Shown here piece by piece: positions 30,422 through 38,050 of a DNA stretch of 64,000 nucleotides (the stretch's first letter is position 1; every line of letters starts with the position of its first letter). Position numbers and translations under genes: made by a program. Location of the stretch: the NCBI RefSeq assembly GCF_012932565.1, contig NZ_JABBYJ010000001.1, positions 1,860,001 through 1,924,000 on the forward strand. The letters run 5' to 3'. Source of the DNA: Sneathiella limimaris (lineage in GTDB: Bacteria > Pseudomonadota > Alphaproteobacteria > Sneathiellales > Sneathiellaceae). Under the pieces are notes generated by a model. That model was not told where the DNA came from and did no database searches. It was given only the letters and a program-made list of their open reading frames with translations.

Positions 30422-32182
30422 TTAGATACTCCATTCCGGATCATTTAACAGGGGATTCCCTTTTTGGGATAAAACTTTGAAGGCTTCGAATGTACTCAGA
30501 AAAACAAACGGGGAATTCTCTGACTTTAAAAGTTGCGAGGTGGAGAGGCGATCCATGACAGGGCCTTTTACCTCGGCAAAATGCAGTTCAATTCCGTTTT
30601 CTTTGAGTTCCTCCTGAAGGAGCTCAAGAGTATGGAGCGCACTTCCATCAATGGAATTGATGGCACTGCAAATAAGAAGGACATCTGTAATCTGGGTCTT
30701 GCTTGCAACTTTGTTGAGAATGAAATTCTCAAGGTAACTGGCATTGGCAAAAAACAGGCTTTCGTCGATCCTGAGAGCAAGCAAATGGGGATAAGTTTTG
30801 ACTTTATGCCGGTTGATATTCCGAAAATGTTCTGTATCGCCTACCTGGCCTACGATGGCAATGTGGGGCCGGCTGGAACGCCAGAAATGTAAAATTAGCG
30901 AGAGTGAGATACCAACAATAAGTCCGGTCTCAATGCCAAAAAACAGAACCGAGATAAATGTACTGCCCTCTGCAATCCCGTCCGCACGATCGTAACGAAG
31001 GTTTTTTAGGAACCCTTTGATGTCGACAAGTTCAAGGATGGCGACGAGGATAATTGCGGCCAATACAGTTTTTGGGATGTAGTAGAAAAGCGGTGTAAAA
31101 AAGGCCAACGTGAGACCAATAAGACAAGCGGTAATAATCGCTGCCATCTGTGTATTGGCGCCAGCGGTGTGATTAACAACTGATCGGCTAAAGCCGCCAC
31201 AAACTGGACTTCCTCCAGTGAAACCACTTCCAAGATTGGCAAATCCGAGCCCCCAGGCTTCCTGATTAACGTCCAGCTTTTGGCGGCGTTTGTTTGCCAA
31301 GACCTTGGCGATTGCAACGCTCTCAACATAGCTGATGATTGTGATCAAAACTGCAGAAGGAGCCAACTGCTGGAAAAGTCCCAGGTCAAAGCTAATCATC
31401 TGCAGGTCAGGTAAACCTTCAGGGATGGATCCGATGACTTTTACGTTCTCAGTCTCGGCGAGGTTGAGGCCATACACAATCAGCGTGCTGAGTATAAGAA
31501 CCAGAAGTGGTCCCGTCTTTGAAAGTCCTGCCGCCAGATTTTTCAGTGGATCAATATTTTGCAAGATAGATGCAAAATATTTCCGAGCCAGATACAGAAG
31601 AATTAGGCTGAAAATACCAATGATGAGAGTTGTTCCATTCAAAGGGTCCCAGACGTTACTTAGTAAATTCTGTGGTAGGAAATCGTTATATGTGAGTTTT
31701 GAATTGAAGCCGCCAAAGGGTGTTAGTTGACTGAATGCGATCAGCAAGGCAGCCGCGCTTGTAAAACCCGCCATAACCGGATGGCTCAGAAATTCAGTTA
31801 AAAGCCCGAGCCGTAAGACGCCAATTATTAAAAAGCAAACACCAACCATGGCTGACAAGGTTATAGCGGCGGCCAAATATTCCTCTGTCCCTTGTGCGGC
31901 AACAGATGAAAGTGCATAAGCAACCATCAATGAGGCGACCGCCACGGGGCCGACTGCCAATGTGCGACTACTGCCAAACAATGCATACATAATTGGCGGC
32001 GTGATGCTGGCGTAGAGCCCAATTTCAGGGGGAAGACCTGCCAGGGCTGAGTAGGCCATAGCCTGTGGGATTAGAAGGATAGCGGTGATAATTCCCGCTG
32101 TCAGATCCCCTCCAAAAGTTTTCTGATTGTAGGTTTTCAGCCAACTGATTGCAGGAACGAATTTTTCAGTCTGAAAAGTCAT
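30422..32182 (-). CDS. SulP family anion transporter with STAS domain
   Basis: 586 residues. About 12-14 membrane segments of the SulP/SLC26 fold (PQAMAYSALAGLPPEIGLYAS near the start) are followed by a C-terminal STAS domain with the IDGSAL loop. Members carry sulfate, bicarbonate or other anions. Its place between a thiol-switch ArsR gene and a YeeE/YedE pair points to sulfate, sulfite or another sulfur oxyanion. The ATG at 32182, with AGGAAG 9 bases upstream, is 2 bases past the arsR stop; an in-frame TTG at 32200 is less likely. Confidence 0.93.
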   Translation of the reverse strand: MTFQTEKFVPAISWLKTYNQKTFGGDLTAGIITAILLIPQAMAYSALAGLPPEIGLYASITPPIMYALFGSSRTLAVGPVAVASLMVAYALSSVAAQGTEEYLAAAITLSAMVGVCFLIIGVLRLGLLTEFLSHPVMAGFTSAAALLIAFSQLTPFGGFNSKLTYNDFLPQNLLSNVWDPLNGTTLIIGIFSLILLYLARKYFASILQNIDPLKNLAAGLSKTGPLLVLILSTLIVYGLNLAETENVKVIGSIPEGLPDLQMISFDLGLFQQLAPSAVLITIISYVESVAIAKVLANKRRQKLDVNQEAWGLGFANLGSGFTGGSPVCGGFSRSVVNHTAGANTQMAAIITACLIGLTLAFFTPLFYYIPKTVLAAIILVAILELVDIKGFLKNLRYDRADGIAEGSTFISVLFFGIETGLIVGISLSLILHFWRSSRPHIAIVGQVGDTEHFRNINRHKVKTYPHLLALRIDESLFFANASYLENFILNKVASKTQITDVLLICSAINSIDGSALHTLELLQEELKENGIELHFAEVKGPVMDRLSTSQLLKSENSPFVFLSTFEAFKVLSQKGNPLLNDPEWSI

Positions 32183-32184
32183 GA

Positions 32185-32484
32185 TCAATCTTCCTGACAA
32201 TAAAGTGCATACAGAGTGGATATGATGTGCTTTGCTTCGTCACCGTCGAGGGAGTAAAAAATTGTTTGTCCTTCTCGACGCGTTTTCACTAATCCGTCTT
32301 TTCTCAGTAAGGCAAGCTGCTGCGAAATCGAAGAGGGGCGAGCCTCCAAGGCAGCAGCTAGTTCGTTTACCGGCTTTTCCTGATCATTGAGCTGGCATAG
32401 CAACATAAGCCGTGTTTCACTGGAAAGTGCTTTCATGAGGGTGCTGGCTCGTGTTGCTGATTTTTTCATGTCTTCCATATTCAT
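32185..32484 (-). CDS. bigR: ArsR/SmtB-family repressor, BigR/SqrR-like persulfide sensor
   Basis: 99-residue winged-helix protein. The recognition helix region is SSISQQLALLRKDGLV and the wing RREGQTIFYSL. It has only two cysteines, Cys30 (LLCQL) and Cys96 (ALYCQED), 66 residues apart; BigR and SqrR use a pair with the same separation to form a di- or tetrasulfide and release DNA. The metal-site CxC of ArsR is absent. It is first in the operon arsR-sulP-yeeE/yedE-yedE, and a palindrome lies just ahead of its ATG, so autorepression relieved by sulfide stress is inferred. A second ATG at 32478 is an alternative start. Confidence 0.88.
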   Translation of the reverse strand: MNMEDMKKSATRASTLMKALSSETRLMLLCQLNDQEKPVNELAAALEARPSSISQQLALLRKDGLVKTRREGQTIFYSLDGDEAKHIISTLYALYCQED

Positions 32485-32491
32485 ATATGCT

Positions 32492-32511
32492 TATCTACAT
32501 ATATACAGATA
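32492..32511. promoter_or_regulatory. candidate operator of the ArsR-type regulator
   Basis: A 20-base near-palindrome, TATCT-ac-ATATAT-ac-AGATA, with outer arms and centre symmetric and only the ac pairs breaking symmetry. It begins 8 bases ahead of the regulator ATG in a very AT-rich stretch, where it would cover the promoter or transcript start. AT-rich dyads at this place are typical of BigR/SqrR operators. Confidence 0.6.
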
Positions 32512-32704
32512 TATAGTCAAGAAAAGATTTATGATTTGTCAGCGTGAGTGGGGTTAATCCGGTGAGGGCAGGCTAAATAATTGGGCTTAGTCAGCCGGGC
32601 GATTTGAGATTTGTTCGTTTGTTAAGGGGATAAATAGATCCCATCAAAAGCATGGGAAATACGAGGCATGGCCTGCTTTACTATAAATGTGAAAAGCCGG
32701 AAGC

Positions 32705-34015
32705 TTAGTTTTGTGCAACCCGCATCAGGTTGCCATTGTCCGGAGTCACGATAAAGCAGGACATGCTTTGGCGCATAAGGCTTTGGCAAGCTTTTCGGGC
32801 GCTGTTTTCGTCGAAGCCTAACATTTGGGCTCGGTACACTGGGGTACCTTTATGGACGACTTTTTGAATATGGTAGCGCGTGTCGGTTAGCAAGTTACTG
32901 ATCCGATTGGAAGCCATATCCAACAGATCTCGCGCTCTGCCAGGCCGAGAGAATGCACCAATTTGAATTCCCCAGTTTCCGTCACTATCGATTTGTGGTG
33001 AAGGGGGTGGTGTTGGCGCGGATACTTTAGCGACAACAGGTTCCTTCGTCACTGCAGCGGATGCGACTGCAACCGGTTTGCTTGAGCCTGTATTGGTATG
33101 AGGACTTCCGAGCGCAATCTGAGGTGGCCGTTGGCTAGGCAGCGGAATTGTAAAGGGACGTATTGTGTCCATCTTCTCAAAACCACGATCCAACAGTTTG
33201 GTCATATGTCTGTCCCGGCTCTTTGCTGTTCTGCCGCCAAAGACAACACCGATCAAGCGGTTGCCGCCCCGTTTGGCAGAAGCAACCAGATTGAAACCGG
33301 ATGCGCGGATGTAGCCCGTCTTGATCCCATCTGCACCTGAATATTTCCCAAGCAGGTTATTGTGATTTTTGTATGTGTGACCCTTGTAGTCGAATTTCTG
33401 AAGGGACAGATAATCATAATAGCCGGGGAAGTCGTGGATAATTGCTGCCCCTAAAATTGCCATGTCGCGAGCTGTACTCTTTTGGCGCCGGTTTGGAAGG
33501 CCGCTTGCGTTCCGAAAACTTGTCCGGCTCATTCCGAGCTTGCGCGCTTTCTCAGTCATATCACGTGCAAATGCCGCCTCAGTCGGAGCCATAGCTTCTG
33601 CAAGGACTGTAGCGGCATCGTTGGCCGACTTAGTGATCAGGCCGAACATGGCGTCCCGCACACTGATTGTACTTCCGCGTTTCAAGCCAAGTTTGGTTGG
33701 TGTTTGGCCGGCAGCTCGCGCAGAAACAGGGAGGCGTTGGTCAAGCTTCAGTTTGCCAGTCTTGAGTGCCTCAAAAGTCATGTAAAGTGTCATGATTTTG
33801 GTCAGTGAAGCAGGATAAAGCTTTTTGTCGGCATTCCTTGCAAAGAGGACTTGTCCCGTACGGCTGTCCATCACAATTGATGCATATCTTGCTTCGGCCT
33901 GAGAAGCAAAATTGATGGTACCAAACAGTATTGTTAAAAGGAGAAGGGATAGTGTAAGCGCCTGCCGCACAAATGGGGCAGTTCGAGGTGATGCTTCCGT
34001 GTTGATGGCCTTCAC
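32705..34015 (-). CDS. dacC: D-alanyl-D-alanine carboxypeptidase with C-terminal SPOR domain
   Basis: 436 residues from GTG 34015. A signal peptide with hydrophobic core is cut after an AEA site. The penicillin-binding catalytic set follows: SLTK (SxxK) in YPASLTKIM, SAN (SxN) in TKSANDAA, and KTG in GIKTGY. A Pro/Val-rich linker leads to a SPOR domain (GNWGIQIGAFS...) that binds denuded glycan at the septum. It trims pentapeptide side chains in the periplasm. No ATG exists; GTG 34015 has AAGG 8 bases upstream and gives a clean signal peptide, while GTG 34051 and TTG 34099 are alternatives. Confidence 0.9.
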   Translation of the reverse strand: MKAINTEASPRTAPFVRQALTLSLLLLTILFGTINFASQAEARYASIVMDSRTGQVLFARNADKKLYPASLTKIMTLYMTFEALKTGKLKLDQRLPVSARAAGQTPTKLGLKRGSTISVRDAMFGLITKSANDAATVLAEAMAPTEAAFARDMTEKARKLGMSRTSFRNASGLPNRRQKSTARDMAILGAAIIHDFPGYYDYLSLQKFDYKGHTYKNHNNLLGKYSGADGIKTGYIRASGFNLVASAKRGGNRLIGVVFGGRTAKSRDRHMTKLLDRGFEKMDTIRPFTIPLPSQRPPQIALGSPHTNTGSSKPVAVASAAVTKEPVVAKVSAPTPPPSPQIDSDGNWGIQIGAFSRPGRARDLLDMASNRISNLLTDTRYHIQKVVHKGTPVYRAQMLGFDENSARKACQSLMRQSMSCFIVTPDNGNLMRVAQN

Positions 34016-34398
34016 ATTCAGGGCCTTAACAAGAGACTCAATCAATTGCACTTTCAATCCACATGTAAACTTTAATTTGATGACTGACGCAACGCACAAA
34101 GATGCTGTGACAATTACTCTATGAAAACGTGCGAATCATGTCCATCAAAAATAAAAAAAACTTATTAAAATCTGTCTGATAAGTGACATTTTTAACTTTA
34201 ACTGTTTAAAGCCCCCTTTTTGGAGCATGCCGCAATCCTAGAGTAAGTTGGTTAAGAAAGAGTAAGGCCAATCAGTTTATTTTTTGGCTTTTTTAAAGCT
34301 GCAACTGCTAAATAAAAGTGCATATAAATTTCCACTAATTTTCGTATCAGGTAAATTTGTTCATTAAAATCAATTATTTAGGTTGGATAAATTTTATA

Positions 34399-34413
34399 TT
34401 GTGCAGTGCACAA
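34399..34413. promoter_or_regulatory. TGC-N3-GCA dyad, candidate PhaR site 1
   Basis: TTGTGCA and TGCACAA form perfect 7-base arms around one base. The core TGC-agt-GCA matches the CTGC-N3/4-GCAG type of site reported for the polyhydroxyalkanoate regulator PhaR. It ends 6 bases ahead of the -35 box of the phasin promoter. Confidence 0.6.
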
Positions 34414-34419
34414 AAACTG

Positions 34420-34447
34420 TTGACAAGTTAGAATAGATGCATATATT
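34420..34447 (+). promoter_or_regulatory. sigma-70 type promoter of the phasin gene
   Basis: A consensus -35 TTGACA at 34420-34425 and TATATT at 34442-34447 are spaced by 16 bases. This predicts a leader of about 48 bases before the phasin ATG and is the clearest promoter in the window, in line with the very high expression known for phasins. Confidence 0.7.
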
Positions 34448-34456
34448 GAGTGCTGA

Positions 34457-34471
34457 TGTTGCGATGCAGCA
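34457..34471. promoter_or_regulatory. TGC-N3-GCA dyad, candidate PhaR site 2
   Basis: TGTTGC-gat-GCAGCA, one mismatch between arms, lies just past the expected transcript start. With site 1 it brackets the core promoter, so a bound repressor dimer pair would block polymerase. Confidence 0.55.
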
Positions 34472-34502
34472 TTTTGGATTGCTATTCTCGAAAGGTACCC
34501 CA

Positions 34503-35093
34503 ATGAGCACTACTAAAGCAAAGACTTCAGCCAAGGCGACTAACGGTTCCAAAGCTGAAAAAATCGAAAACCCATTTGTCACAAAGGACTTTGAAACTGC
34601 AATGTCTGCAGGTAAGAAAAGTCTCCAGGACGCATTTCTGACTAGTGCAGAAATGGCAGAAAATGCTTACAAATCTGGTCACGAAGCTTTCAAAACTTCT
34701 TTTGAAAAAGCAGTTAAAGACAGCAAAGCCCAGGTTGAAAAAGCAACTAAAACACTTGCAGACGTTCCAATGTATGACAAGGAAAGCGCAGAGCCTTTCT
34801 TGAAAGCTGGAACAGCAGTTGTTGAAAAAGGCGAGAAAATCAGCTTTGAACTTATCGAATTCGGTACAGGTCGGATGGATGCATATTTCGCAACAGCCCG
34901 TTCTGTAATCGAAGCAGAAGATGTTCAGAAAGCTCTCGAACTTCAAACAGAATTCGCTCGTGACTCAGTTGAGACATTTGTCAGTGAAGTTTCCAAACTG
35001 AACGCAATGTTCGTGGATGCTTCCAAAACAGTGATGGAACCATTTGGCGCACAATATGCTGCCAGCATGGATAAATTCCTGAGCCGCGCGTAA
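34503..35093 (+). CDS. phasin family protein
   Basis: 196 residues, rich in Lys, Ala and Glu, helical throughout, with the phasin-2 type core (AMSAGKKSLQDAFLTSAEMAE...). Phasins coat polyhydroxyalkanoate granules and control their size and number. The ATG at 34503 has AAAGG about 10 bases upstream; an open frame back to 34437 would overlap the promoter and is rejected. The gene uses noticeably more AAA/GAA codons and fewer GC-ending ones than its neighbours, as expected of a highly expressed Lys/Glu-rich protein. It is monocistronic, with a strong terminator. Confidence 0.92.
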   Translation: MSTTKAKTSAKATNGSKAEKIENPFVTKDFETAMSAGKKSLQDAFLTSAEMAENAYKSGHEAFKTSFEKAVKDSKAQVEKATKTLADVPMYDKESAEPFLKAGTAVVEKGEKISFELIEFGTGRMDAYFATARSVIEAEDVQKALELQTEFARDSVETFVSEVSKLNAMFVDASKTVMEPFGAQYAASMDKFLSRA

Positions 35094-35132
35094 GACATTT
35101 AAGAATAGTAGACCAAAAGTAGCGTTCAAATT

Positions 35133-35159
35133 AGCCCGGCTGTTCAGCCGGGCTTTTTT
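35133..35159 (+). terminator. intrinsic terminator of the phasin gene
   Basis: A GC-rich 10-bp stem (AGCCCGGCTG / CAGCCGGGCT) with a minimal loop and a six-base T run, 39 bases after the phasin stop. Confidence 0.9.
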
Positions 35160-35348
35160 GTGTTTTGGGCTGGGTTTCAAGGCAAATGACAAATTAATTA
35201 AAAATTTTTGTAAAAAAATCACGTCTGTTTATCATTTTTTTTGAATTTCCTGCTATGATCTCTAACTATGTAATAGGGGGCGCATTAAGTCCGCAAGTGA
35301 GTAGTTAAGTATAGTTTTTATGTTTGAATTGAACGGTTTCAGACAACG

Positions 35349-35681
35349 ATGATTACAGGTAACGATAAGAAGATCGGGGACACAGACACCAACACTGGTG
35401 TTGGAGTTGCAACTCGGACCAAGCCGAAGAAGCCATCTCTTTGGCGCGTAATTCTACTAAATGATGACTATACGCCTATGGAGTTTGTGGTTCACATCCT
35501 GCAAAGTTTCTTTGGGATGGATGAGCAAACAGCGGCCCAAGTGATGCTTCATGTGCATCATAAAGGGGTCGGTGTGTGCGGTGTTTTCACCTACGAGGTA
35601 GCTGAAACAAAAGTCGCGCAGGTGATCGAGTACGCTCGAAGTAACCAGCATCCTTTGCAATGTACAATGGAGAAAGAATAG
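35349..35681 (+). CDS. clpS: ATP-dependent Clp protease adaptor ClpS
   Basis: 110 residues. A flexible polar N-terminus of about 30 residues precedes the ClpS core: [18 protein letters not shown], then [23 protein letters not shown]. The [10 protein letters not shown] stretch forms the pocket for N-degron residues. It delivers such substrates to ClpAP. Its TAG stop overlaps the clpA GTG by one base, so translation is coupled. A small dyad (CCAACAC-tg-GTGTTGG, 35389-35404) lies within the early codons. Confidence 0.95.
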
Positions 35682-38050
35682 TGCCCGGATTTTCAAATGC
35701 CTTAGAAGAAAGCTTACACCGCGCAATGGCACTGGCGACATCTCGTCGTCATGAATTCGCGATGCTCGAGCACCTCCTTTACTCCTTAACAGAAGATCAG
35801 GATGCAGCTGCGGTGATGCGAGCCTGCAATGTAGATCTGGATCTGCTGCGCAAGGATTTGGATGATTTTATCTCAGAAGAGTTAGACGACCTGGTCATGG
35901 ATCGTTTCGTTGAAGCCCGTCCAACTCTATCCTTCCAACGGGTTGTTCAACGTGCATTAATCCACACTGAAAGCTCTGGCCGTGAAGAAGTGACAGGCGC
36001 CAATGTCTTGGTTGCGATCTTTTCTGAGAGAGAAAGCCACGCTGCCTATTTCTTGCAGAAACAGGAAATGACACGCCTGGATGCGGTTCAGTATATCAGT
36101 CATGGTGTGGCAAAAGCCCCAGGCAAAGATATCCCGCGCGTTGTCCGCGGTGTTGATGGTCAGTTTAAATCTGAAACCCATAAAAGTGCGGAAGAAGAAG
36201 AGAAAGGACCAGCAGAAGCTTCAGAAGCTTTGGACGCTTACTGCGTTAATCTTAACGAAAAAGCCAGCCGCGGGAAAATTGATCCTTTGATTGGCCGCCA
36301 AGCAGAAGTCGAACGGACTATTCAGATCCTGTGTCGCCGGTCCAAAAATAATCCTCTGCTTGTTGGCGATCCTGGCGTTGGCAAGACAGCAATTGCAGAA
36401 GGGCTTGCCAAGCGAATTGTGGACGGTGATGTTCCAGAAGTTCTTCTGGCTGGCGTGATTTATTCTCTTGATATGGGAACTCTTCTCGCGGGCACGCGCT
36501 ACCGTGGTGATTTTGAAGAGCGCCTGAAAGCTGTAATGACTGAGCTTGAAGGTATGGATAATGCGATCCTCTTCATCGATGAAATTCATACAATTATTGG
36601 GGCAGGTGCCACGAGCGGTGGTGCGATGGATGCCTCCAATTTATTGAAACCTGCTTTGGCTAGCGGATCTATTCGCTGCATAGGGTCTACGACTTACAAA
36701 GAATATCGTAGCCATTTTGAAAAAGATCGTGCGCTACTGCGTCGGTTCCAGAAAATTGATGTCTATGAGCCAAGTGTCCCGGACGCTATCAAGATCCTCA
36801 AAGGGCTAAAACCTTATTTCGAGGAACATCACAAAATCCGGTACACAGCGGAAGCCTTGAAGTCAGCTGTAGAATTGTCGGCTCGTTACATCAATGATCG
36901 GAAACTCCCAGACAAAGCGATCGATGTGATTGATGAGGTTGGTGCGGCTCAAATGCTCCGGCCGGAAAGTAAACGCAAGAAGACTATTGGCGTTAAAGAT
37001 GTTGAAGACATCGTCGCCAAGATTGCCAGGATTCCACCAAAATCTGTGAGCAAAGAAGACACAGAAAGCCTTCGGAAGCTGGATGTTGAACTAAAGCGTG
37101 TTGTATTTGGTCAGGATCAGGCGATTGACGCCTTGGCAAGTTCCATAAAGCTGGCAAGAGCGGGACTTCGGGAACCAGAAAAGCCGATCGGAAACTATTT
37201 GTTCTCAGGCCCAACGGGCGTCGGTAAAACCGAGGTGGCGCGTCAACTTGCATCCATAATGGGTGTGGAGCTGGTTCGTTTTGATATGTCTGAGTATATG
37301 GAGCGTCATACGGTAAGCCGTCTGATTGGTGCCCCTCCCGGTTATGTTGGTTATGATCAGGGCGGTTTGCTAACGGATGCCATTGACCAGCAACCGCATG
37401 CGGTATTGCTGTTGGATGAGATTGAGAAAGCCCATCCCGATCTGTTCAATATACTGCTTCAGGTCATGGACCACGGAAAGCTGACGGATCATAACGGTAA
37501 GCAGGTTGATTTTAGAAACGTAGTTTTGATTATGACCACAAATGCTGGTGCTCAGGAGATGAGTAAGCAGGCAATTGGGTTTGGCAATGAGCTTCGTGAA
37601 GGCGAGGATGAGGAAGCCATCAAAAAGCTGTTTACGCCAGAATTCCGAAATCGCTTGGATGCCATTGTTCCATTTGGACCGCTACCGCCTGAAGTGGTTA
37701 CTCGAGTTGTTGAAAAATTCATTCTACAGCTTGAAACTCAACTGCAGGATCGGAATGTGACCCTGTCCTTGACGGATGCGGCCGCGACCTGGTTGGCTGA
37801 AAAAGGATATGATCAGTTGAATGGTGCTCGTCCACTTGGACGTGTCATTCAGGAGAAGATCAAGAAACCGCTGTCTGAAGAATTACTATTTGGCAAGCTT
37901 GCCAAAGGTGGTCATGTAAATATCGGCCTTAAGAAAGGTGAGCTTTCTTTCACGATCGAAAGCACGGAAGACGTTAATCGCCGTGAAAAAGTTGAACGTC
38001 AAAAAGCCGGGAAGAAAAAAGATACCAAGACGGATAATCAAAAAGCCTGA
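35681..38050 (+). CDS. clpA: ATP-dependent Clp protease ATP-binding subunit ClpA
   Basis: 789 residues. An N-terminal repeat domain (ClpS docking) is followed by two AAA+ modules with Walker A loops GDPGVGKT and GPTGVGKT and Walker B boxes ILFIDEIH and VLLLDEIE. It unfolds proteins and feeds them to ClpP, using ClpS for N-end rule substrates. The start is GTG at 35681 with GGAGAAAG upstream, overlapping the clpS stop (TAGTG); reading from an ATG at 35660 would extend it into clpS. The C-terminal tail is strongly Lys-rich. No clpP gene in the window. Confidence 0.96.

Follow-up and report, generated by a model that had tools for sequence, protein, structure and literature searches.

Putative PhaR operators on both sides of the phasin promoter in Sneathiella limimaris and related Alphaproteobacteria

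The phasin gene of Sneathiella limimaris is preceded by a promoter that lies between two TGC-N3-GCA dyads. Here, we report an analysis of this arrangement in the window, the whole 64,000-nt stretch of DNA under study, and in the 3.66-Mb genome that carries it, together with the phasin loci of the order and of the wider class. We propose that the two dyads are operators of PhaR, the polymer-responsive repressor of PHA granule genes, and that PhaR bound there would block the promoter until polymer relieves the block. Judged from sequence comparison and by analogy with studied systems, this reading has a probability of about 0.88. An earlier note on this DNA had already taken the dyads to be PhaR-type sites, a suggestion now supported at the sequence level by their fit to a footprint-based consensus, by the phaR gene of the genome and by the conserved pair at phasin promoters. 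Our main addition is the class-wide counts, in which a pair 55–61 bp apart around the promoter is common in alphaproteobacterial phasin loci; PhaR control of phasin would be carried from a few model species to a further order. A literature search, mostly without subscription papers, found no PhaR study in Sneathiella or its order and no class-wide survey of PhaR operator spacing.

The features of the locus, in window coordinates, are as follows.

32705–34099, minus strand: D-alanyl-D-alanine carboxypeptidase gene, divergent from the phasin gene
34368–34380, plus strand: IHF-like site AATCAATTATTTA, centre at about −80, an exact match to the consensus as we assume it
34399–34413, no strand assigned: putative operator 1, TTGTGCAGTGCACAA, a perfect dyad
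34420–34425, plus strand: −35 hexamer TTGACA
34442–34447, plus strand: −10 hexamer TATATT, after a spacer of 16
34457–34471, no strand assigned: putative operator 2, TGTTGCGATGCAGCA, a near-perfect dyad
34490–34495, plus strand: probable ribosome-binding site GAAAGG, from the sequence, with AAAGG kept in the order alignment
34503–35093, plus strand: phasin gene, 196 aa, PF09361
35133–35154, plus strand: terminator-like hairpin 3′ of the phasin gene (1 found against 1.2 expected from regional shuffles)

The palindrome of operator 1 is perfect except for its central base, and the self-complementarity of operator 2 is broken at one arm pair and at the central three bases. Both dyads have the sequence and coordinates given in the earlier note, which was also correct in placing them on either side of a TTGACA-16-TATATT promoter before the phasin gene: the promoter (34420–34447) lies between the two and matches 11 of 12 consensus positions. 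Transcription is predicted to start near 34454, and with this inferred start operator 1 would be centred at about −48 and operator 2 at about +10. The gene product is identified as a phasin by PF09361 (E 2.8e-16, above cut-off) and by TIGR01841 (31.6 bits; cut-off 30.2), and scores 40.7 bits against TIGR01985, under the cut-off of 99.7. We set the start of the gene at the ATG at 34503, rather than at the longer open reading frame start at 34437, because this ATG aligns across relatives. Among named records, the phasin itself is most similar to that of Sneathiella glossodoripedis (74% identity).

Both dyads agree with the known PhaR motif over a longer sequence than the bare core. According to the accessible part of PMC6201568, DNase I footprints in Bradyrhizobium define the PhaR consensus TGCRNYGCASMA, and the 12-mers of operator 1 (TGCAGTGCACAA) and operator 2 (TGCGATGCAGCA) are both exact fits. 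The R. eutropha PhaR motif, YTKNTGCRNYGCANMAR, is described in the available text of PMC12849132 with up to three mismatches allowed; counted by eye, the window sites have 1 and 2. The window contains fewer copies of the core TGCNNNGCA than expected (13 against 23.3), and a core pair within 60 bp is present in 40% of 200 order-1 simulated windows, so a bare TGC-N3-GCA pair is, on its own, not remarkable by chance. The case for the dyads is carried by the longer sequence match and by conservation; we rejected a chance origin of the bare pair because the pair is conserved at the phasin loci of the order (23/23) and of the class.

In the window, the full consensus TGCRNYGCASMA is matched 4 times, at 3 places, where 0.90 matches are expected and 1 of 100 shuffles reaches 4; two of the three places are the phasin-promoter dyads. 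The perfect 15-mer TTGTGCANTGCACAA occurs at only 2 places in the genome. Genome-wide, the consensus is matched 36 times and the backwards pattern once, a comparison that proves nothing because the backwards pattern has CG where the original has GC and is an unfair control. With a crude open reading frame picker, the 32 distinct places divide into 13 between and 19 inside reading frames; two of the latter are the phaR site, in a spurious frame, and the second phasin site, in an over-long one. Most of the other genome matches are probably chance.

Conservation within the order is complete. Of 25 genomes, 23 gave a phasin locus, and all 23 loci contain exactly one TGCN3GCA pair 50–70 bp apart, always at the phasin promoter, with a spacing of 57–61 bp and with TTGAC between the two cores; the TATAT of the −10 hexamer is likewise kept in the alignment. 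The absence of the core from the phasin promoters of close relatives had been named beforehand as evidence against the proposal, and the core is present in every one. Four phasin loci read from a second collection show spacings of 59, 59, 59 and 61 bp (L038, from Bacteroidia and 31% identical, was left out of this reading), and are not independent of the order count because at least three of the four share promoter letters with G005, G010 and G020. The centre of the core is RNY in 46/46 operator cores of the order versus 5/16 other TGCN3GCA cores in the same loci. This bears on the idea that the downstream dyad works as a hairpin in the leader RNA of the phasin gene, for which operator 2 lies suitably downstream of the predicted start and has arms that could pair. 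An RNY centre is needless for a hairpin loop, the motif also stands upstream of the promoter, where it is untranscribed from this promoter, and no Rfam match reaches the gathering threshold in 32000–38000; we give this idea almost no credence.

For the class, we searched 143 alphaproteobacterial genomes, 95 of which have a PF09361 match, and assembled 70 phasin loci from 69 of the 95 (30 returned by the tool and 40 picked by hand). In the 600 bp before the phasin domain, the strict box TGCRNYGCA occurs at least once in 66/70 loci and at least twice in 52/70, compared with 6/70 and 1/70 in a control stretch lying beyond it on the upstream side and up to 600 bp long. When the RNY centre is not assumed, a TGCN3GCA pair 50–70 bp apart is found in 48/70 loci and in 1/70 controls; exact TTGAC lies between the pair in 41 of these 48, always beginning 17–21 bp after the first core starts. 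Cores with an RNY centre make up 131/139 in the phasin upstream regions versus 7/21 in the control stretches. The best strict pair around the promoter is spaced 55–61 bp in 40/47 loci (range 48–68).

The PhaR DNA-binding domain is present in 66 of the 69 class genomes. G072 has neither a PhaR hit nor boxes, and three of the four loci that lack a strict box (G033, G054 and G109) belong to genomes with PhaR. Box pairs occur without a PhaR hit in G154 and G161, whose assemblies are fragmented (440 and 230 contigs), and these pairs either count against PhaR or reflect missing sequence. Short dyads are used by more than one family, and this, together with the pairs in G154 and G161, would fit another regulator with a TGC-N3-GCA site as the owner of the dyads. 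Such an owner is highly improbable in our view, given that the dyads match the footprinted PhaR consensus (PMC6201568, in its accessible part), that boxes stand before phaR itself, that the PhaR domain is so widespread in the class set and that phasin is the classical PhaR target.

The genome has a single phaR, at about 919.5 kb on C1, identified by PF07879 and PF05233 above cut-off and by the TIGR01848 equivalog (157.5 bits; cut-off 109.45). It sits outside the window, in keeping with the earlier remark that the window holds no phaR, and its neighbours are a divergent alpha/beta-hydrolase gene followed by phaA- and phaB-like genes. The hydrolase (411 aa, L039:5404-6639) bears a distant resemblance to class III PHA synthase (170 bits against a cut-off of 365), and weak matches to the PhaC query in other genomes of the order also lie near the phaR hits of those genomes.

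The earlier proposal to look for the core before phaR and phaC held for phaR in relaxed form and failed for phaC. Before the genome phaR stand TGCGGCGCAGCA and, 20 bp away, CGCATTGCACAA, and a relaxed NGCRNYGCR pair 20–22 bp apart precedes phaR in 23/23 order loci, 10 of which have a strict box. Controls were counted for the strict and YGCRNYGCR forms; the order control for YGCRNYGCR is 0/23. The signal in the wider class is weak: a strict box precedes phaR in 6/30 loci (control 1/30), and YGCRNYGCR in 18/30 (control 7/30). No strict or YGCRNYGCR box was found before phaC in the 21 readable order loci (21 of 22 kept, L225 being out of register, with second PHA synthase copies left out), and no TGCN3GCA before phaA or before a second, weaker phasin-like gene (C3) in this genome. 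The accessible text of PMC12542648 likewise reports no detected PhaR site at S. meliloti phbC.

These positions suggest how the promoter may be controlled. When polymer is lacking, PhaR, probably as one dimer per dyad, would occupy the site just upstream of the −35 hexamer and the site on the start region, and the bound protein would exclude RNA polymerase. Nascent PHB would draw PhaR off, the operators would become free and phasin would be made; once the granules are covered, PhaR would be free again and repression would return. Occlusion and polymer relief are inferred from the accessible parts of two papers, one proposing steric hindrance of RNA polymerase at R. eutropha phaP1, where PhaR covers one site immediately before −35 and a second around the start (PMC12849132), and the other describing how polymer takes PhaR off phasin promoters in S. 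meliloti (PMC12542648). Here the sites are placed to block a sigma-70-type promoter, which sits between the dyads, as it does in 23/23 order loci.

The spacing of the operators bears on how they could work together. Among 46 class promoters, with −10 positions assigned by consensus and therefore noisy, the variance of the total distance is 11.06 and the summed variances of its parts 11.03 (permutation P 0.51). The total variance thus equals the sum of the parts, with no compensation and no sign that the distance between operators is held. Operator 1 lies a mean of 19.1 bp from −35 (sd 1.2 bp) and operator 2 is placed more loosely relative to −10 (sd 2.9 bp), so each operator seems, from its position, to be set relative to the promoter and not to the other operator. 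PhaR might instead bridge the operators, as a tetramer or through a DNA loop, with selection holding the inter-site distance. The narrow class spacing would suit such bridging, as would the treatment of Herbaspirillum PhbF as a tetramer (PMC3206438) and the cooperative binding of PhaR with two sites (PMC12849132, PMC10888616), as far as the available text of these papers goes. Bridging at a fixed site-to-site distance is, however, unsupported by the covariation test, and the spacing already ranges from 57 to 61 bp within the order; we consider this mechanism very unlikely.

The tight register of operator 1 to −35 could also be read as a sign that PhaR acts at these sites as an activator of the phasin gene, or as activator and repressor at once, and R. 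eutropha PhaR does activate phaP3 (PMC12849132). In the accessible part of the same paper, however, phaP3 has its PhaR sites some 200 and 70 bp upstream and a further one within the gene, at a promoter that looks sigma-N-like; operator 2, on the start region, is in a repressing position, as in the PhaR-repressed phaP1 of R. eutropha. Activation is very improbable on these grounds. We continue to favour occlusion of the promoter by a repressing PhaR.

Upstream of operator 1, most order loci have a further element resembling WATCAANNNNTTR, which we take to be the IHF consensus. Within 75 bp upstream of operator 1, an exact match occurs in 11/23 order loci versus 0.67 in shuffles, and a match with at most one mismatch in 20/23 versus 8.07; the next stretch upstream, used as control, gives 0 and 1. 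The best match is centred 27–29 bp before the core in 17/23 order loci, one of these matches having two mismatches, and the window site lies about 28 bp before operator 1. Among the 46 class promoters, exact matches number 2 against 0.18 expected and matches with at most one mismatch 10 against 3.2 (controls 1 and 3), so the sequence signal for an IHF-like site outside the genus is weak. Our literature search, mostly without subscription papers, found no study of IHF at phasin promoters.

Several further places carry PhaR-type sequences. Eleven of the 25 order genomes contain the perfect dyad TTGTGCANTGCACAA, which has 12 occurrences in all: 8 at phasin promoters, 3 in the gap that separates a nasS-like gene from a nitrate-type ABC transporter gene (L265, L266 and L269, at 1501), and one at C2:48386. 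The gene beside the transporter is presumably nasS. In this genome, the same gap holds a PhaR-type box, TGTTGCACCGCACAA, at L050:6954-6968. The transporter ATPase scores 397.9 bits against TIGR01184 (cut-off 291.8); the permease (ntrB) is below cut-off (154 versus 209), as are the binding proteins. A small gene of 97 residues, with no Pfam or NCBIfam match, is preceded by two PhaR-type boxes exactly 63 bp apart in 11/13 order loci and by the proximal box in 13/13, a second G000 match with stops being left out of the count; the pair is at L044:4321-4392 (C1:1759320-1759391), and also in L249–L260. The gene next to it holds DUF1127. If PhaR acts at such candidate targets, nitrogen uptake and carbon storage would be linked through them.

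Apart from operator 1, this genome has a single perfect dyad, at L042:4387-4401 (C2:48386-48400), followed after 40 bp by a SulP-type transporter gene and after some 350 bp by a DEAD-box helicase gene; PMC6201568 names rhlE among the genes that PhaR represses in Bradyrhizobium. A one-mismatch dyad, TTGTGCAGTGCAAAA, stands just before the urea transporter gene urtA at L043:4259-4273 (C1:1146258-1146272). A PhaR-type box at L082:1974-1985 is identical to operator 2 over 15 letters and lies about 280 bp from an mmgR small RNA (RF00519) at L082:1618-1694 on the minus strand (46.9 bits; gathering 41). We do not claim this box as an mmgR control site because the distance is far from the layout of S. 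meliloti mmgR, where the site is 13 from the start in the accessible part of PMC12542648.

A broader scheme can be drawn from these observations, in which the phasin promoter of many Alphaproteobacteria is a fixed-register module: operator 1 precedes the start of −35 by about 19 bp, operator 2 covers the start region, and Sneathiella adds an IHF bend near −80. PhaR might then act with RNA polymerase and IHF, holding rather than only excluding polymerase, and in the genus the PhaR signal might extend to the nitrate-type transporter operon and to the small gene preceded by boxes 63 bp apart, so that nitrogen uptake would be tied to polymer storage. As a whole, we regard this scheme as unlikely.

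Comparisons with known PhaR systems, made with the accessible parts of the papers cited, place the window layout among them. Herbaspirillum seropedicae PhbF recognizes a similar motif, TG-N-TGC-N3-GCAA, and represses phaP1 and its own gene; unlike the window, this betaproteobacterium has one footprinted site, at the phbF promoter (PMC3206438). Sinorhizobium meliloti phaP1 and phaP2, under PhaR/AniA, have two palindromes per phasin promoter, the EMSA-tested phaP1 promoter site TTATTGTGCACTGCACAAATT is nearly identical to the window box, and phbC is without a detected site, as phaC is here; in contrast to the window, the sites are 18 and 28 bp apart by their listed coordinates and flank the −35 element, not the whole promoter (PMC12542648). 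At Bradyrhizobium diazoefficiens phaP1, the footprinted 12-mers are TGCGACGCACAA and TGCGTCGCACAA (PMC6201568, PMC10888616); both window sites fit the consensus of this species (PMC6201568), whereas its sites flank −35 at a distance of about 29 bp from each other (PMC10888616). The closely spaced pairs of these two rhizobial models differ from the 55–61 bp layout common in the class. The nearest likeness is to Ralstonia eutropha phaP1, where a sigma-70 phasin promoter likewise has one PhaR site immediately before −35 and another around the start (PMC12849132; background in PMC3206438), with the palindrome TGCRNYGCA and its one central base (PMC12849132). R. eutropha differs in being a betaproteobacterium with a third site predicted inside its phaP1 (PMC12849132). 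The layout in the window is that of R. eutropha phaP1, a PhaR system already known.
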